DNA of 64,000 nucleotides. Origin: Pygmaiobacter massiliensis. Its GTDB lineage: Bacteria > Bacillota > Clostridia > Oscillospirales > Ruminococcaceae. Made by a program: the position numbers and the translations under genes. The stretch is taken from contig NZ_OAML01000002.1 in NCBI RefSeq assembly GCF_900199435.1, positions 372,001 to 436,000 of the forward strand, given 5' to 3'. The notes under the pieces are model-generated. The model was given only the letters and a program-made list of their open reading frames with translations, was not told the DNA's origin and searched no databases. Numbering within the stretch: the stretch's first letter is position 1; the number at the start of each line of letters is the position of its first letter. Of the stretch, positions 54,238-64,000 are shown piece after piece.

Positions 54238-54250
54238 AAACAAGGACATA

Positions 54251-54332
54251 AAAACAGGGGTGCCGAAAGGCTGAGAGCTGTTATTGCAGTAACCCTTTAA
54301 CCTGATCCGGATAATGCCGGCGTAGGAAGTTT
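54251..54332 (+). ncRNA. TPP riboswitch (THI element) aptamer
   Basis: The conserved parts are in order: GGGGTGC, GGCTGAGAG, ACCCTTTAACCTGATCCGG, ATAATGCCGGCGTAGGAAG. The outer helix can close as AAAC/GTTT. Thiamine pyrophosphate binding should promote the terminator that follows, lowering thiT expression. Confidence 0.95.
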
Positions 54333-54380
54333 AATATAGCAGAGGCGTGTTTCTCACCTCTGTCCCCTAAACTTTTGGGT

Positions 54381-54425
54381 AACACCTGTTTTGCATCACT
54401 GCAAGGCGGGTGTTATTTGTTTTTA
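54381..54425 (+). terminator. Terminator of the TPP riboswitch expression platform
   Basis: AACACC/GGTGTT outer stem with TTGCA/TGCAA inner stem, then TATTTGTTTTT, between aptamer and thiT. Confidence 0.8.
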
Positions 54426-54456
54426 TGTACTTTTATTTTACGGAGGTACTCAAACT

Positions 54457-55029
54457 ATGACCCAAACTTTTTCTAAAACTCGCACGCTGGTAGAATGTGC
54501 ACTGATGATTGCCATTGGCACGATTCTTTCCATGATTAAGCTCATCGAGCTGCCCAACGGCGGCAGTGTTACACTGCTTTCGATGCTGCCTTTTATTCTG
54601 GTATCTTTTCGGCACGGCGTTAAATGGGGCCTTTTGACCGGCCTTGCCAACAGCCTTTTGCAGATGCTGCTTGGGTTTTACGCACCGCCCGCCGGCACTG
54701 CACTTGCCTTTTTTGGCATGATTATGCTGGATTACGTGCTTGCATTCTCTCTGCTTGGCACTGCGGCCGCTTTCGCAAAGCCCTTTAAAAACAAACTTAC
54801 CGGTGTTGCAGTAGGTACTGCTGCGGTTTGTGTCATCCGTTTTCTGTGCAGCTTTTTCTCCGGTATTTTAATTTGGGCAGCCTATGCGCCCTCTGATATG
54901 CCACTGTGGCTTTACAGCCTTACTTACAACGGCAGCTACATGGGTGTTGAGCTGATTTTGACCACAATTGGCGCCGCTGTGCTCTATCAGGCAAAACCGA
55001 CTATTTTTAGCGCTGTACAGGACAACTAA
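54457..55029 (+). CDS. thiT: Thiamine ECF-transporter substrate-binding membrane subunit
   Basis: A 190-residue S-component with six membrane segments. The thiamine site includes IELPNGGSVTLLSMLPF near 27 (with the Gly-rich loop) and PAGTALAFFGMIMLDYVLAF near 83; a later part, SLTYNGSYMGVELILTTIG, matches ThiT. It imports thiamine using a shared ECF energising module encoded elsewhere. Start set at the ATG with CGGAGG 9 bases upstream. Controlled by the TPP riboswitch before it. Confidence 0.95.
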   Translation: MTQTFSKTRTLVECALMIAIGTILSMIKLIELPNGGSVTLLSMLPFILVSFRHGVKWGLLTGLANSLLQMLLGFYAPPAGTALAFFGMIMLDYVLAFSLLGTAAAFAKPFKNKLTGVAVGTAAVCVIRFLCSFFSGILIWAAYAPSDMPLWLYSLTYNGSYMGVELILTTIGAAVLYQAKPTIFSAVQDN

Positions 55030-57965: not shown

Positions 57966-58538
57966 TTAAGCGGCAGGCAGCTTCATAACAAGGCCAACAG
58001 CTAACCGTGCTGCTCCGCAAAGGCTCATCACTAAAATCGGGTTCCATTTTTTAATGCGTAGAATAACAAAAGCAGCGAGGAATAGCACTGCGCCGATCCA
58101 ATCCACAGCCGAAAGCTGAATGGCGCTGCCGGCAAAAATCACTGTTTGCAGGATGGAAAGCCCTGCCGCAGCAATGAGGGACACAACCGCAGGCCGCAGG
58201 CAACCCAATACGCTTTGCAGTGCCGGTAGTTTTTGATAGCGGCGGTAGACATACGCCAGCAGCGAAACGATGATACAGGCCGGGAAAATGCTGCCGAAAG
58301 TGGCAACTACCGCCCCCAGCGGGCCCGCAACGCGTGTCCCCACAAAGGTTGCCGCATTGATAGCGATAGGGCCGGGGGTCATCTCCGCAATCGTGACAAG
58401 ATCGGTAAATTCCGCCATTGTAAGCCAGCTATGCAGCTCTACTACCTGGTTTTGTATCAGTGGCATTGCGGCATAGCCGCCGCCGATGCTGAACATGCCT
58501 ACCTGCAAAAAGCTAAGAAACAATTGCAACAAAATCAT
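57966..58538 (-). CDS. Chromate transporter (CHR) half protein, subunit 2
   Basis: A 190-residue membrane protein. Its family start FLQVGMFSIGGGYAAMPLIQ is followed by VELHSWLTMAEFTDLVTIAE and MTPGPIAINAATFVGTRVAG, the CHR-domain signature. Short CHR proteins occur as pairs that form a heterodimer. Classic members export chromate, but in anaerobes the true substrate is uncertain. It overlaps the partner gene by 4 bases. Confidence 0.9.
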   Translation of the reverse strand: MILLQLFLSFLQVGMFSIGGGYAAMPLIQNQVVELHSWLTMAEFTDLVTIAEMTPGPIAINAATFVGTRVAGPLGAVVATFGSIFPACIIVSLLAYVYRRYQKLPALQSVLGCLRPAVVSLIAAAGLSILQTVIFAGSAIQLSAVDWIGAVLFLAAFVILRIKKWNPILVMSLCGAARLAVGLVMKLPAA

Positions 58539-59110
58539 TTTTTGCGTCCTCCCTTCAGCGGAAGATAAACGCGCAAAAGGCCAATCAGCCCTGCTGCCAG
58601 GATAATGTAAACGACATTGACGTCAAACACAAAGGTAGCAATAAATGCTGCTGCCATAATGCAAAGCGAAAGCAGTTTTTTTTCTTTTACTACGTTTTGC
58701 CCCAGCCCGCATACCACGTCCAGAATTACCGCCGCAACACCCGCCTGCATGCCCTTTAGCACCAGCGCGACATAAGGGTTCGACGCAAAAGCGGCATAAA
58801 AAAGTGAAATCACAGACAAAATCAGCATCGGCGGCAAAATAGTGCCCAGCACAGCCACCGCCGCACCAAGTGCACCTGCCATATGCCAGCCAACCAGTAT
58901 CGAAGCGTTTACGGCAATCGCGCCCGGTGAAGACTGAGCCAGCGCTGTCATGTCCAGCATCTCCTGCTCGGTTAGCCAGTGCAATTCATCTACGAATTTA
59001 CGTTTCATGAAGGTGACAATCACAAAGCCGCCGCCAAAGGTAAAGCTACTGATGTACAGTGTTGAAAAAAACAGCTTTCGCAATAGAAATTTATGATTAT
59101 TTTGTTCCAT
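58535..59110 (-). CDS. Chromate transporter (CHR) half protein, subunit 1
   Basis: A 191-residue membrane protein paralogous to its neighbour. Marks: LYISSFTFGGGFVIVTFMKR, DELHWLTEQEMLDMTALAQ and SSPGAIAVNASILVGWHMAG. As with the partner, it has half the length of the long ChrA type, so both likely assemble in antiparallel form. Start ATG with AGGAGGAA about 6 bases upstream. No regulator adjoins. Confidence 0.9.
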   Translation of the reverse strand: MEQNNHKFLLRKLFFSTLYISSFTFGGGFVIVTFMKRKFVDELHWLTEQEMLDMTALAQSSPGAIAVNASILVGWHMAGALGAAVAVLGTILPPMLILSVISLFYAAFASNPYVALVLKGMQAGVAAVILDVVCGLGQNVVKEKKLLSLCIMAAAFIATFVFDVNVVYIILAAGLIGLLRVYLPLKGGRKK

Positions 59111-59948: not shown

Positions 59949-60017
59949 AAGTAGCCTCCATTAAATAGTGGTTTTTTTACAAAACAGACATTTAACCCGA
60001 GCGCCATTACAAAATGA

Positions 60018-60084
60018 CCCCCATAGTACAGAGGTTACGGCCTCTGCGTAGATACACCTTCACCAATTTGAAGGTTTATATGGG
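60018..60084 (-). ncRNA. Guanine-class purine riboswitch upstream of purC
   Basis: On the minus strand the closing helix pairs CCCATA with TATGGG. The second helix is CCTTC/GAAGG; the junction reads GTATCTAC; the third hairpin is GCAGAG-GCCGTAAC-CTCTGT with the conserved CCGTAA loop; then ACTATGG. The C in ACTATG (position 74 of the xpt numbering) predicts guanine or hypoxanthine rather than adenine, and the U in TCTAC argues against the 2'-deoxyguanosine class. About 70 bases separate it from purC, with no clear terminator, so translational control is possible. Confidence 0.88.
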
Positions 60085-60107
60085 CAAACAATCTTCTTTG
60101 CAATAAC

Positions 60108-60197: not shown

Positions 60198-60226
60198 TTG
60201 CTTTTTTGCGGCTCTTCCGGTATAAT
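60198..60226 (+). promoter_or_regulatory. Putative promoter of the cobalamin riboswitch unit
   Basis: TTGCTT, 17 bases, perfect TATAAT, with transcription start near 60233, just ahead of the aptamer. It lies 62 bases from the divergent purC promoter. Confidence 0.7.
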
Positions 60227-60232
60227 TTGGCT

Positions 60233-60366
60233 ATAAACAGGGAATGCGGTGAAAATCCGCAACAGCTCACACTACTGTGAGGAAGAACTTGCAGCGCAAT
60301 GCCACTGTCTTTCGGCGGGAAGGGCGCTTGCCGGGCTATTACTTCCAAGTCAGGATACCTTATAGT
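60233..60366 (+). ncRNA. Cobalamin riboswitch
   Basis: Conserved parts in order: GGGAATGCGGTGAAAATCCGC, CACTACTGTGAGG, GCCACTGTC, GGGAAGGGCG and the B12 box AAGTCAGGATACC. The class binds adenosylcobalamin or related corrinoids and normally switches downstream genes off when the vitamin is plentiful. A perfect terminator hairpin follows before the next gene. Confidence 0.93.
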
Positions 60367-60457
60367 TACATGACTCTTTCGGTGAAGGAAAGTGGAGTGC
60401 AGAGCGCAAAAGGCTCGGCTGCCGGTATGGTGGGCGTGGCTTTGTTTTTTGTTTTCC

Positions 60458-60482
60458 GCAGGCCTCAGGGCCTGCTTTTTTG
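60458..60482 (+). terminator. Terminator of the cobalamin riboswitch expression platform
   Basis: GCAGGCC and GGCCTGC form a 7-bp GC-rich stem with a 4-base loop, then TTTTTTGTT, about 50 bases before the start codon of the surface protein gene. This fits a transcriptional OFF switch. Confidence 0.85.
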
Positions 60483-60530
60483 TTGCCCTGTTTTGCATTT
60501 TCTTCGCGAAAGGGCGGAAAAGAGGAAAAT

Positions 60531-63500
60531 GTGAAACGTATACTTTCTTTACTGCTGGCAGTCTGCCTGTTGTTTGGCACACTGCCGGCAACTGCTCTCG
60601 CCAGTAGCACAGCCGGGCTGGCGGCAAATTCGTCAGTCACCTCTGGCGCGCTGCCAGGCGAACCGGATGCAGAAGCTGCTGCGCCGCCTGAGGCTACAGC
60701 TTCGCCCGAAAAGTCTTCTGCTGACCCAACAACACCGCCAGCAGCAGAAACCCCTGTGGCACCGGCCTTACTGGAAGGCTCTGATTCTTCTGCCGCAGAG
60801 CCTTCACCGATGCCAACAACCTCAGCTGCGCCTGCGCCCGAAGCCCCGGCATCTTTTGCAGCAGCTGGTCCCATCACTGCCACACTGCGCATCGAGCTGT
60901 ACGACTCTACACTCCAGGCTCCCACGAAAATTACGATGCCTGAGGTGTATAAGCCGCTGGCCGATTACGGGCTAACCGTAAAGCAGGATCCCGGTTATTT
61001 CACCCCGCTGCACCTGCTTGCAGAATACTGCATCAACGTGTACGGAATGGAACCTAAAGATGTAATCGAAGTAACCAGTACCGGGTTTGTTACCAATTTC
61101 ATGGGGCTGAAAGGCTCCAACAACATCCCCGAAAGCGGCGGAAACCTTTTGACCGACACTTCTTTCATGTTCGCCATTAATGACCGTTACCCGGTACGTG
61201 ACAACGGGATTGGATATACCCTTGCGGATTATCCGCTCACTTCCGGCGATACCTTTGTGCTCTACGATATGTGGTTCTCGGGCAGCACACTTAGCGGAAA
61301 TTATGCTTACTTTACACAAAAATCAATAAGCGGCTATACCGGCGACCCCATTGCCCTGCAGCTTCTCGGTTTTTCCGGCATGACGGGAAATCCTGCTTCT
61401 ATAGAAGGTGCAGAGCTTCTGTTCTATGATACCAGCATGACGGTGCCCAACACGACCGACGCCGTAGGTGAAGCGGTGAAAGCAGACGGCACCACGCAAG
61501 CTGTTTTTAGCAAGCCTGGCACCTATGTGGTTTCCGCAAAGCGGCTGAGCGGTTATTATCACAACACACCTTTTGTGTGCGCACAGGATATCAGTCGCCC
61601 TTACGCGCTGGTTACCATTACCGATCCGCCCCCGATGACCGATGCGCAGGCGGTTGCCTACGACAAGAGTATTTTGGACATTGGTGACCTCAGCGCTGTC
61701 ACTGCAAACCTCTCGCTGCCCACCGCAGGGCGACGCGGCACTACCATCACCTGGCAAAGTGATAATGCGGCCATCAATGCGGACGGGCTTGTCGTGCGCC
61801 CTGCTTATCCACAGGCAGATCAGACGGTCCATCTTACCGCAACCATTCGCTGCGGCGCAGAAGCTGCGATAAAAGAGTTTACCGCCACCGTTAAAGCTAT
61901 GACAAAAGCAGAAGTAGAACAGCAAATAAAAGATGCTGTTTCCTCTGTTTATGTTTCTTCGTCGCTCTCCGCTTCCGGCCCCAGTAATTTGATTATGGTA
62001 TGGGAAGACAAGCTGGCTACGGCGGGCCATTCTGAAATTAAAGTTTCCATCGTGGCTTCTGAAAACACCAACATCGCGCCGGATGGCACCATCACGTTTA
62101 ACCAGTATTATTGCAAGGCACCGGTCACACTACGCTTTGCACGTTTGGGTGTCTTTTACGAGCAGACCATCACTTACACAGTCAACACTAAAACACTTAC
62201 CGCGCAAGAGCGGGTAGATACCGTTGCTGAGGTTCTGTCCTTTCATGATATCAAAAGCACCAATGAAGATGCCTCTTTTGTTACCAAAAGCCTGACAAAC
62301 GTCAAAAGCATGACCGGGTACAGCGGAGTGAAAATCACTTGGAAAAGCTCGTCTTCTGCTGTTTCGATTGGCTCTTACTCTACACACAGTGTCAAGCGGC
62401 CCGCTGCTGGGCAACCGGATGCGCCGGTAGTGCTTACCGCGACCATCACCGCAACCGGTGCTACCACAAAAACCAAAGACATTACACTAACGGTTGGTGC
62501 TTACACGACCGCGCTGGAAGCACTCGGTCTTTCCGCCGGCACCCTCGATTTTTCGCCTGCTGTGCAACGCTACACCGTTCACCTGCCGCAGAATGCCGAA
62601 ACCCTGGTCGTAACTGCAAAGCCGAAAGACCCTTCGGCTACCAATTTTGTGATTGGCAGCTCCTCTTTTTCGTCTAACGGTAATAAAGAAAGATCAGTTA
62701 CTGTTACGCTGACCGGGCTCGTAACGGAGTTGCCCATCAGCGTTACCTGCTCCGGCCAAACCGAAACCACCCTATTGACTTTGGTACGCGACCTGCCGGA
62801 AAACGCTGCGCTCTCTGCTTTTTGGGGCAGTTTTCGCAAAAACAGCACCGCCAACGCGGTGGTGCAAAATGCAAAACTTTCTTTTGCAGAGGAATCTGCC
62901 ACGCTGCGCTGGGAAAGCAGTAACTCCGCGAGCGGTGGATTGACCAGCTACCCTGGCAGCCCTATCTGCGTAGATAGCAAGCTATACCTTGCACGGGATA
63001 ATAAATTGCTCAGACTGAACCTGGAAACCGGCGAGGTGGAAAAAGAAACTGCACTTGCCGGCGAAACCGGATATGCTGCGATGCTGGCCTATGCAGAAGG
63101 CCAGATTTTCGTGCCATTGAACGGTGGTGTAGTGGAATGCCTAGATGCCACCACGATGCGCTCTTTATGGCGCACTTCAGCGCTCGGCGGCAGCTCTTTG
63201 CAGGCGCTCGCCCCGGTGTCTTACATCTATGGCAAAGTGTTCTGCGGCTTTTATGACTACACCAGTCAATCCGGCACGATTGCCATGCTAGACCCCGCCG
63301 CCGCTCCGGATGCAAGCGGACAGAAGGTGTGGACGAACACCTATGGTGCAGCCAGTTGCTATGGCAGCGGTGCTACCATGGCTGGCGAAAACATTGTTTT
63401 GGCAGACGAAAGCGGAATGCTGACACTGTTAAGTAAGGATGGCAGCCAGCTTGACACCGCCCCCGTTGAGGGTGCTGTACGCAGCCTCCCGGTCTACGAG

Positions 63501-64000
63501 CAAAATGCCGTTTATGTAACCAGCGCAAAAGGCCTGCTGTACCGTTTCGAAATTGTGTCAAATAAGCTGCAACAAACGGCAAAAGCAGAGCTCCCCGCAT
63601 CCAGCGTCTGTTCACCTGTCATCGCAAATGGCCTCGTTTTTGCTGTCGGCGGCGCTTTTGGCGGCAACGGCTTTTGTGCCGTATACGATGCAGCCACGCT
63701 TAATTTGCAGGCACAACTGCAAACCGCAGGGCCGATACAGTCTTCCCCGCTTGCCATTGCTAACAGCGAGGGGGTTGCGCTTTATGCCGTACAAAACACA
63801 GCAGATGCACCGCTGCTTCGCTTTACCTACCATACCCAGCAAAAAGCGCTAACGCAGCAAACGCTTTACACGCCTACGGTGCAAAACTATGCTACTTTCA
63901 GCCCCGTGCTGACCGAAAGCGGCTTACTGCTTTATGGCAACGACAGCGGCACCCTGCAAGCATTGGCGCTGCAGCCTGTGCCTGTGCGTCCAGACCCCAC
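60531..64000 (+). CDS. Very large secreted DUF4430 / Ig-like / PQQ beta-propeller protein under B12 control (partial, 3' end outside window)
   Basis: An open frame of 1156 codons without a stop, from GTG at 60531 with GAGG 4-5 bases upstream. Residues 1-24 are a signal peptide (MKRILSLLLAVCLLFGTLPA then TALA). A Pro/Ala/Glu/Thr-rich linker runs to about 112. A DUF4430-type domain, akin to the transcobalamin C-terminal domain, spans about 115-262 (FMFAINDRYPV, then LADYPLTSGDTFVLYDMWF). Ig-like domains follow at about 268-365, 375-456 and 560-655, with a less clear module at about 473-552, and a cadherin-like domain at 657-750. From about 753 on a PQQ-like beta-propeller is seen (KLYLARDNKLLRLNLETGEV; GQIFVPLNGGVVECLDATT; NAVYVTSAKGLLYRFE). 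Any wall anchor lies outside the window. Function is not established; corrinoid capture is inferred. Confidence 0.85.
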   Translation, partial: MKRILSLLLAVCLLFGTLPATALASSTAGLAANSSVTSGALPGEPDAEAAAPPEATASPEKSSADPTTPPAAETPVAPALLEGSDSSAAEPSPMPTTSAAPAPEAPASFAAAGPITATLRIELYDSTLQAPTKITMPEVYKPLADYGLTVKQDPGYFTPLHLLAEYCINVYGMEPKDVIEVTSTGFVTNFMGLKGSNNIPESGGNLLTDTSFMFAINDRYPVRDNGIGYTLADYPLTSGDTFVLYDMWFSGSTLSGNYAYFTQKSISGYTGDPIALQLLGFSGMTGNPASIEGAELLFYDTSMTVPNTTDAVGEAVKADGTTQAVFSKPGTYVVSAKRLSGYYHNTPFVCAQDISRPYALVTITDPPPMTDAQAVAYDKSILDIGDLSAVTANLSLPTAGRRGTTITWQSDNAAINADGLVVRPAYPQADQTVHLTATIRCGAEAAIKEFTATVKAMTKAEVEQQIKDAVSSVYVSSSLSASGPSNLIMVWEDKLATAGHSEIKVSIVASENTNIAPDGTITFNQYYCKAPVTLRFARLGVFYEQTITYTVNTKTLTAQERVDTVAEVLSFHDIKSTNEDASFVTKSLTNVKSMTGYSGVKITWKSSSSAVSIGSYSTHSVKRPAAGQPDAPVVLTATITATGATTKTKDITLTVGAYTTALEALGLSAGTLDFSPAVQRYTVHLPQNAETLVVTAKPKDPSATNFVIGSSSFSSNGNKERSVTVTLTGLVTELPISVTCSGQTETTLLTLVRDLPENAALSAFWGSFRKNSTANAVVQNAKLSFAEESATLRWESSNSASGGLTSYPGSPICVDSKLYLARDNKLLRLNLETGEVEKETALAGETGYAAMLAYAEGQIFVPLNGGVVECLDATTMRSLWRTSALGGSSLQALAPVSYIYGKVFCGFYDYTSQSGTIAMLDPAAAPDASGQKVWTNTYGAASCYGSGATMAGENIVLADESGMLTLLSKDGSQLDTAPVEGAVRSLPVYEQNAVYVTSAKGLLYRFEIVSNKLQQTAKAELPASSVCSPVIANGLVFAVGGAFGGNGFCAVYDAATLNLQAQLQTAGPIQSSPLAIANSEGVALYAVQNTADAPLLRFTYHTQQKALTQQTLYTPTVQNYATFSPVLTESGLLLYGNDSGTLQALALQPVPVRPDP

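Follow-up and report, generated by a model that had tools for sequence, protein, structure and literature searches.

What does a giant surface protein do for a bacterium whose genome places its gene behind a cobalamin riboswitch? Such a gene begins near the right end of a 64,000-nucleotide stretch of Pygmaiobacter massiliensis DNA (the window), and the original prediction offered two answers: corrinoid capture at the cell surface, or service as a B12-independent stand-in in times of B12 scarcity. Our analysis indicates that the gene probably belongs to a Gram-positive corrinoid-scavenging system that is repressed by B12, in which binding is putative and a beta-propeller fills the slot that an alpha-toroid usually occupies. 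No description of such DUF4430-toroid/propeller vitamin-catching systems was found in the literature searched. The locus contains the following features.

60198..60378, + strand: cobalamin riboswitch aptamer, RF00174 (cmscan 72.8 bits, E 1.9e-16, gathering threshold 31.5)
60458-60485, + strand: intrinsic-terminator-like hairpin GCAGGCC-TCAG-GGCCTGC with T run, TTTTTTGTTG (pattern scan, consensus match)
60531..64000, continuing to window-equivalent position 64745, + strand: giant surface protein gene, GTG start (ORF and whole-genome sequence)
60531..60605, + strand: signal peptide, residues 1-25, MKRILSLLLAVCLLFGTLPATALAS (read by eye)
60816..61355, + strand: putative divergent DUF4430 / transcobalamin beta-domain-like domain, residues 96-275 (phmmer, hhalign, and VIA on a low-confidence model)
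61653..61898, + strand: first Ig-like aBig_2 domain (PF20578, 88.6 bits)
62256..62495, + strand: second Ig-like aBig_2 domain (PF20578, 51.6 bits)
62520..62768, + strand: Cadherin-like beta-sandwich, below cut-off (PF12733, E 0.02, 16 bits against a cut-off of 24.2)
62820..63977, + strand: PQQ/BamB-type beta-propeller, residues 764-1149 (PQQ_2 E 8e-14, alignments A2 and A7, family HMM)

The aptamer exceeds the gathering threshold of RF00174 and retains an intact, conserved core, with several P1 and P2 pairs non-standard in the alignment to the Rfam model. The hairpin and its T run sit between the aptamer and the GTG start and are presumed to form the expression platform; the riboswitch that had been predicted is present, with a terminator-like site. 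In the cobalamin riboswitch class, low intracellular cobalamin lets transcription pass the terminator.

In the whole genome the giant is 1404 amino acids long, 1156 of them within the window, as expected for the exported protein of more than 1156 residues described originally. The search for a wall anchor beyond position 64000 revealed a C terminus consisting of LPSTAY, a hydrophobic helix and KKKSR; reading this helix by eye as a membrane anchor, we regard the giant as apparently exported and membrane-anchored. Sortase anchoring does not emerge as a general rule, since xPxT[GA] occurs within the last 60 residues of just 9 of 83 toroid or propeller ORFs (from the 80 loci described below), some of the nine lacking a hydrophobic tail. 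The predicted PQQ-like propeller is clear, and of the "several" predicted Ig-like domains two are clear (aBig_2 twice, Pfam E 1e-35 for the whole protein) and the third is weak. Full-length relatives of the giant were found neither in six other genomes of the genus nor in a 148-genome sample of the same family.

The DUF4430-type domain that had been proposed near the N terminus is more elusive. The Pfam model (PF14478) reports no match in the giant at a limit of E 10, although HMMER filters discard most matches above about 0.1. However, phmmer, searching a DUF4430-rich set of 5866 frames, aligns the domain with residues 1585-1726 of a relative, L146 (E 4.6e-4, domain i-E 0.0014), a segment overlapping that protein's own DUF4430 match, and hhalign also links the domain to DUF4430 (P 0.0011, 0/60 shuffles). 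Against eight domains of other giants, hhalign detected nothing (probability 0.4). For a low-confidence model of the domain (pLDDT 52.8), built from an alignment that included DUF4430 rows picked for resemblance, VIA returns cobalamin binders at Z 8.6-9.7, with ranks 1-15 made up of 14 cobalamin-binder rows and 3u7z, whereas Foldseek finds nothing at E<=0.001 (best 0.017). We take residues 96-275 to be a divergent DUF4430 domain, homologous to recognized DUF4430 domains and, according to the low-confidence model, sharing their fold. The domain also appears to be folded like the transcobalamin beta domain, those beta domains being the best matches of the same model.

If the giant captures corrinoids, where are its partners? 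The gene that follows it, just past the window edge, encodes a DUF4430 lipoprotein (PF14478 52.3 bits, gathering threshold 23.8) and is presumably co-transcribed with it. The 15 kb beyond the window contain neither ECF genes after the lipoprotein nor the BtuFCD genes that had been imagined past the right edge; unrelated genes on the opposite strand come next, which we take to be acylphosphatase-like and then diaminopimelate-epimerase-like. Two FecCD permeases, either of which may be BtuC, are encoded elsewhere, at distances of over 140 kb from both cobalamin riboswitches. RF00174 matches the genome twice at E<=0.001; the second match falls just short of the RF00174 cut-off and clears that of RF01482. 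PF14478 likewise matches twice, once in the gene group behind each riboswitch match. Behind the second riboswitch lie genes for a DUF4430 protein and an S-component homologous to CbrT: its profile finds a sole PDB sequence at E<=10, 6fnp_A (E 7.7e-23), from the structure of ECF-CbrT, whose CbrT is a proven B12 transport subunit. CbrT-type S-components are also carried by 12 of the 13 short riboswitch-DUF4430 loci examined.

Loci from other bacteria place the same parts together. At 80 such loci, the DUF4430 lipoprotein is adjoined by an alpha-toroid protein in 59, carries a fused toroid in 1 and is adjoined by a propeller protein in 5; EcfT and a double ATPase (an ECF transporter) are present in 60. 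In [Clostridium] methylpentosum (L106) the order is riboswitch, propeller, DUF4430 and ECF genes, and a Paenibacillus locus (L108) has a toroid/lipoprotein pair. A riboswitch lies upstream in 40 of the 80 by covariance model, which superseded a regular-expression finder (19/80 loci; 28 of 30 known riboswitches recovered). Where more than 4 kb of upstream sequence was available, one was found at 37 of 56 loci and none detected at 19. Since vitamin-type transporter genes adjoin such parts in related bacteria, these are probably vitamin-catching systems. Linkage is also evident in the 148 same-family genomes, in which at least 38 of 91 DUF4430 matches have a listed cobalamin riboswitch less than 10 kb upstream on the same strand, against a rough chance expectation of 0.2; the other 53 have none within 10 kb on either side among the matches listed. 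For aBig_2, used as a control, 2 of 50 matches lie behind a listed riboswitch, both within the giant itself. RF00174 matches in 47 of 49 whole genomes were excluded from these counts because loci could not be identified from their contig numbers.

The toroid-bearing relatives resemble the animal B12 carriers. For L173, a fused toroid-DUF4430 protein (model pLDDT 84.6), Foldseek places transcobalamin, intrinsic factor or haptocorrin at each of ranks 1-15 (E 6e-10 to 4e-8), with alignments spanning 495-525 columns at an rmsd of 8-13, the packing of the domains being different or not predicted; the model has the carriers' architecture, toroid then beta domain. VIA does not repeat this ranking: no cobalamin binder is among the 50 matches listed for the fused model, and the structures nearest its toroid are squalene cyclases (Z 24). 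This excludes nothing, because VIA orders its matches by how well a single large domain superposes as a rigid body. In PDB sequences, neither the DUF4430 nor the toroid-DUF4430 profiles find a cobalamin binder, the toroid profile matching squalene cyclases and their relatives (best E 3e-12), so the proposed link between bacterial DUF4430/toroid proteins and transcobalamin is made by structure comparison. The window giant (L003) has no toroid HMM match; its likeness to the carriers lies in the beta-domain fold of the low-confidence model. The bacterial system further differs in being anchored to surface or membrane, linked to riboswitches and tied to ECF transporters.

Could the giant instead be an adhesin or glycan-binding protein, its propeller and Ig-like domains doing the work, its N-terminal domain a spacer and B12 a mere signal? 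Both kinds of module are common. The solved sequence relatives of the propeller are of the PQQ/BamB type and are not known corrinoid binders; by sequence comparison alone, BtuG (3DSM) is not among the 45 PDB sequences that match it at E<=0.01. The genus lacks full-length relatives of the giant, and in one genome, G069, a riboswitch-linked propeller gene stands without an adjoining DUF4430 gene. However, using the giant as query (it is also among the seeds of the propeller family HMM), we found four propeller relatives in the 148 genomes (G115, G131, G091, G069), and each of the four is preceded on its own strand, at a distance of no more than about 2 kb, by a listed cobalamin riboswitch. The pairing of propeller with DUF4430 lipoprotein also recurs at the five loci noted above; among 10 loci with a propeller match, a riboswitch precedes the lipoprotein in 6 and also the propeller gene in 5. 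Giants in relatives likewise join DUF4430 to a propeller or toroid. We consider an adhesin unlikely.

It is also conceivable that the DUF4430 system binds something else that is worth collecting at a given B12 status, for example cobalt ions or a precursor of the lower ligand. The T-component in relatives matches CbiQ, weakly, and 3u7z, the solved bacterial fold neighbor, bears the title "putative metal binding protein." Cobalt ECF transporters are also under cobalamin riboswitches, according to PMC11477304. Against this, the short DUF4430 protein has as its neighbor an S-component homologous to an importer of cobalamin and cobinamide, and cobalamin binders are the first matches of the two-domain architecture, making a ligand other than whole corrinoids quite improbable. 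Nor is it likely that the giant and lipoprotein are a relic that no longer serves uptake, the ECF genes having been lost: no ECF genes follow the pair, few B12 users were found (in this genome, one PF02310 protein and no NrdJ) and the aptamer stem is atypical, but both frames are open and intact, and the genome encodes a CbrT-type S-component and EcfT at other sites. We give this reading very little weight. Some cobalamin riboswitches control B12-independent isozymes, which would favor the stand-in of the original prediction. It found no support, since neither the giant nor the lipoprotein has an above-cut-off match to any enzyme family, and the gene neighbors in relatives are transporter genes, with cobalamin-biosynthesis genes in one locus; we judge it highly improbable.

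Context and fold together give good support to corrinoid capture at the surface, through the riboswitch linkage, the CbrT homologue, the beta-domain-like fold and the transcobalamin-like relatives; binding itself is predicted. Such a system might work as follows. At low intracellular cobalamin, transcription would be allowed through the terminator by the riboswitch, and the giant would be exported and kept on the cell surface by means of its C-terminal helix, presenting an N-terminal DUF4430 domain, Ig-like spacers and the propeller, while the lipoprotein from the next gene would sit on the membrane. In relatives, toroid plus DUF4430 has the same two-domain build as intrinsic factor and as transcobalamin, whose two halves bind B12 together; here a propeller, in a putative role, takes the toroid's place. 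The captured corrinoid could then be passed to the CbrT-type S-component encoded behind the second riboswitch and imported via a shared ECF module.

Parts of this scheme have precedents. BtuG of Bacteroides is likewise a riboswitch-controlled surface capture protein, and BtuG2 is a seven-bladed propeller with femtomolar B12 affinity, as described in PMC6143338; unlike BtuG, the system proposed here would have Gram-positive anchoring and an ECF transporter in place of BtuB, and a sequence search with its propeller did not return BtuG among solved structures. ECF-CbrT of Lactobacillus delbrueckii (6FNP) corresponds to the S-component homologue behind the second riboswitch, but no extracellular capture protein is reported in the available text of PMC5997447, from which the words "solute-binding," "lipoprotein" and "riboswitch" are absent. 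In L. delbrueckii the gene cbrS lies beside cbrT, and that study used an E. coli strain lacking btuF, btuC and metE. RUMGNA_00854 of Ruminococcus gnavus (3u7z) is a small bacterial domain near both models in fold, although titled as metal binding; no paper naming it was found in the literature searched.

Pfam still lists DUF4430 among its domains of unknown function, and the riboswitch, the CbrT-type S-component and the transcobalamin-like architecture give the family a directly testable one. We see about even chances that a class of B12-capture systems, widespread and so far undescribed, exists in Bacillota, built on a toroid-DUF4430 clamp that feeds dedicated or shared ECF transporters, that the animal carriers are of shared descent, and that a propeller replaced the toroid in some lineages, including the one studied here, within giant surface proteins. 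If so, animal B12 carriers would gain a bacterial counterpart, one with which intrinsic factor may have to compete in the gut. A scan of the genome collection yielded at least 586 confirmed DUF4430 relatives, with named loci that include those of Blautia wexlerae and Flavonifractor plautii.

In the whole genome of the host (G000), where the window corresponds to C2:372001-436000, the giant gene can be completed and encodes 1404 residues. From the N terminus, a signal peptide and a linker rich in Pro, Ala and Ser lead to a domain at ~112-262, followed by two aBig_2 Ig-like domains and a weak cadherin-like one. A PQQ/BamB-type propeller (~764-1149), whose solved sequence relatives are of this type as well, and a C-terminal region complete the protein. 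The leader and gene start are arranged as follows (window coordinates):

60198-60378, cobalamin riboswitch
60458-60485, terminator-like hairpin
60531, GTG start of the giant gene, which runs past the window end

At its C terminus, LPSTAY is followed by a hydrophobic helix and then KKKSR; this tail resembles a sortase signal but lacks the canonical LPXTG motif. Sortase-type ends also occur in some riboswitch-linked propeller proteins of relatives (LPVTGE in L106, LPKTGS in L150), and just 9 of 83 toroid and propeller ORFs from 80 loci carry a sortase-like motif. The next gene, which starts 47 bases after the giant gene and outside the window, encodes a lipoprotein of 207 residues in which DUF4430 is clear (52.3 bits against a cut-off of 23.8). 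The original prediction that BtuFCD genes could lie just past the right edge was not borne out: neither these nor ECF genes follow the giant and lipoprotein genes, and the next genes are on the opposite strand. No full-length relative of the giant was found in six other genomes of its genus.

The N-terminal domain, proposed to resemble part of transcobalamin, has no Pfam match. In a phmmer search of 5866 translated frames enriched in DUF4430 loci, residues 96-275 matched residues 1585-1726 of the product of L146:14736-20384 (E 4.6e-4, domain i-E 0.0014), in a region overlapping that protein's own DUF4430 match; the L146 gene begins ~200 bases after a riboswitch. Alignment of the domain to a DUF4430 profile with hhalign gave P 0.0011 at a probability of just 20%; this P value was matched by 0 of 60 shuffles and by no giant segment outside the domain. 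An AlphaFold model from 14 rows had a pLDDT of 52.8 and, since most rows were DUF4430 domains that we had picked, is not independent of the idea. For this model, Foldseek placed rat transcobalamin at ranks 1 and 2, 3u7z at rank 3 and the isolated human transcobalamin beta domain at rank 5, with no match reaching E 0.001. With VIA, ranks 1-15 were 14 cobalamin-binder rows and 3u7z (Z 8.6-9.7 across 91-105 residues), followed by Urm1 (8.0), and the carriers aligned through their C-terminal domain.

In relatives, the architecture was modeled on the protein of L173, in which an alpha-toroid and DUF4430 are fused and for which a good model was obtained (pLDDT 84.6, pTM 0.71). Of 350,542 chains, those at Foldseek ranks 1-15 all belong to transcobalamin, intrinsic factor or haptocorrin, with E between 6e-10 and 4e-8 over 495-525 columns; a terpene cyclase comes next (6e-5). 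As the TM-score by query length is only 0.33-0.42 and the rmsd 8-13, the likeness holds for each of the two domains, and the way they pack either differs or is not predicted. With VIA, the toroid is nearest squalene cyclases (Z 24); it is the modeled combination of toroid and DUF4430, rather than the toroid alone, that points to animal B12 carriers. By eye, the fused proteins L105:9472-11094, L036, L044 and others (alignment A1) have two hydrophobic stretches between toroid and DUF4430, such that both domains could face outward. The 3u7z structure, a fold neighbor of both models and a candidate small corrinoid binder, is that of RUMGNA_00854 from Ruminococcus gnavus and bears the title putative metal binding.

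A wider survey covered twenty loci and, among the matches listed in a genome-wide scan, 80 named loci, beyond which more exist. The recurrent operon encodes a surface protein, a DUF4430 lipoprotein, an EcfT-like protein, a double ECF ATPase and an S-component. In the one example tested, the ATPase and S-component exceed their cut-offs, whereas the T-component, at 24.4 bits, is just under the CbiQ cut-off of 25. A toroid protein is adjacent in 59 of the 80 named loci (58 upstream, 1 downstream), fused in one and elsewhere in the locus in two, and a propeller protein is adjacent in five (4 upstream, 1 downstream). Neither was found in 11 loci, 10 of them with <3 kb of upstream sequence, and the main ORF was missing from recovery in two. 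L106 and L086 are one locus, which seeded the search alignment, the propeller HMM and (as L059) the riboswitch model, so L106 is not independent. EcfT and the double ATPase occur within 7 kb in 60/80 loci, with the S-component too in 56; where 4 kb or more is available downstream, the count is 50 of 57. A purpose-built covariance model placed a riboswitch upstream in 40/80 loci (37/56 where >4 kb was available), and 51 of its 52 matches were on the DUF4430 strand. At L091:9764-17485, a riboswitch-propeller-DUF4430-ECF operon extends into a cobalamin biosynthesis cluster with cbiD and cobN, both products exceeding NCBIfam cut-offs. DUF4430 shares a chain with a toroid or propeller in 22 ORFs (80 loci plus family loci), including L164:10462-14697 (1412 residues; DUF4430 90-149, propeller 574-982), with a layout nearly that of the giant. 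Two giants, L177:2087-8020 and L133:3-7997, contain propeller, toroid and DUF4430 in a single chain.

Across 148 same-family genomes, there are at least 151 riboswitches (150 among the matches listed and the second one of the host) and, among those listed, 91 DUF4430 matches. For at least 38 of these 91, a same-strand riboswitch is listed no more than 10 kb upstream (285-707 bases away in 16 cases, 1.9-8.7 kb in 22), where random placement would give 0.2, assuming 2.3 Mb per genome; the remaining 53 have none among the matches listed within 10 kb on either side. For the control family aBig_2, 2/50 were linked, both within the giant itself. A search with the giant as query, which is independent of DUF4430, gave only partial matches, in 11/147 other genomes and mostly to Ig-like or low-complexity sequence. 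The propeller was matched in four (G115, G131, G091 and G069), and each of these four relatives follows a listed same-strand riboswitch within ~2 kb. In G069 (C9), the 1459-residue propeller protein L090:2950-7329 follows a cobalamin riboswitch with no adjoining DUF4430 gene; the DUF4430 match of that genome is on a different contig, likewise behind a riboswitch.

At E≤0.001, RF00174 matches the host genome twice; DUF4430 likewise has two matches there, each of the latter in a gene group behind one of the two cobalamin riboswitches. The second riboswitch scores 31.2 bits for RF00174, just below the cut-off of 31.5, and 57.2 bits for RF01482, above the cut-off of 50. Behind it are genes for a ~130-residue DUF4430 protein and a 174-residue membrane protein with no Pfam family. 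A profile of the latter and nine homologues had a sole PDB-sequence match at E≤10, 6fnp_A (E 7.7e-23), which is ECF-CbrT, shown to transport cobalamin and cobinamide (PMC5997447). Among 13 further short-type riboswitch-DUF4430 loci (from 16), DUF4430 is present in 13/13 and a CbrT homologue in 12/13. In the L. delbrueckii cluster nrdJ-cbrS-cbrT-pduO, cbrS adjoins cbrT (PMC5997447); by analogy with the DUF4430-CbrT pairs observed here, cbrS may encode a DUF4430 protein.

Cobalamin riboswitches are described as switching off B12 transport or synthesis (PMC11477304), from which we infer that B12 scarcity turns the system on. Scarcity would then induce both the giant, as a surface trap, and the membrane-bound DUF4430 lipoprotein, which together would deliver corrinoid to CbrT and an ECF module; one EcfT gene of the host lies elsewhere in the genome. 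The partner of the lipoprotein is usually a toroid, and in the host and a few relatives a propeller; the propeller may either bind corrinoid or merely present the N-terminal domain. Two other readings, a different ligand such as cobalt and a relic in this genome, overlap each other and B12-repressed corrinoid capture, so the odds of the rivals are not exclusive. Judged by two kinds of B12 user, demand in the host looks modest: the genome yielded one protein with a B12-binding domain (PF02310), 606 residues long and with radical-SAM-like matches, and no NrdJ. Two cobalamin riboswitches stand against this one PF02310 protein (entry G000 C1:1335087-1335440). DUF4430 has been placed at the C terminus of transcobalamins in a paper whose text lacks the words bacteria and prokaryot (PMC4350170). 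No description of the system was found in the literature searched on transcobalamin-like proteins, riboswitches, ECF and Firmicutes, and it may be in print elsewhere, such as in preprints or subscription journals.

Several features of the host riboswitch regions deserve mention. The aptamer (window 60220-60367) seemingly lacks the usual P1/P2, and GGCUAUAA (60229-60236) could pair with UUAUAGUU (60360-60367); the fold of the aptamer region is no better than shuffles (z -0.42). Positions 60221-60226, inside the Rfam match, form a perfect TATAAT. Back to back with this riboswitch, in the same intergenic region, is a purine riboswitch (60004-60103, -), upstream of a gene we take to be purC-like. 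A TPP riboswitch (54246-54345, +) precedes a membrane protein gene (54391-55029), presumably ThiT-like. Paired genes that we assume to be chromate-transporter-like (window 57966-59110, -, and L005:10272-11359) lie near both cobalamin riboswitch regions of the host, which is probably a coincidence.
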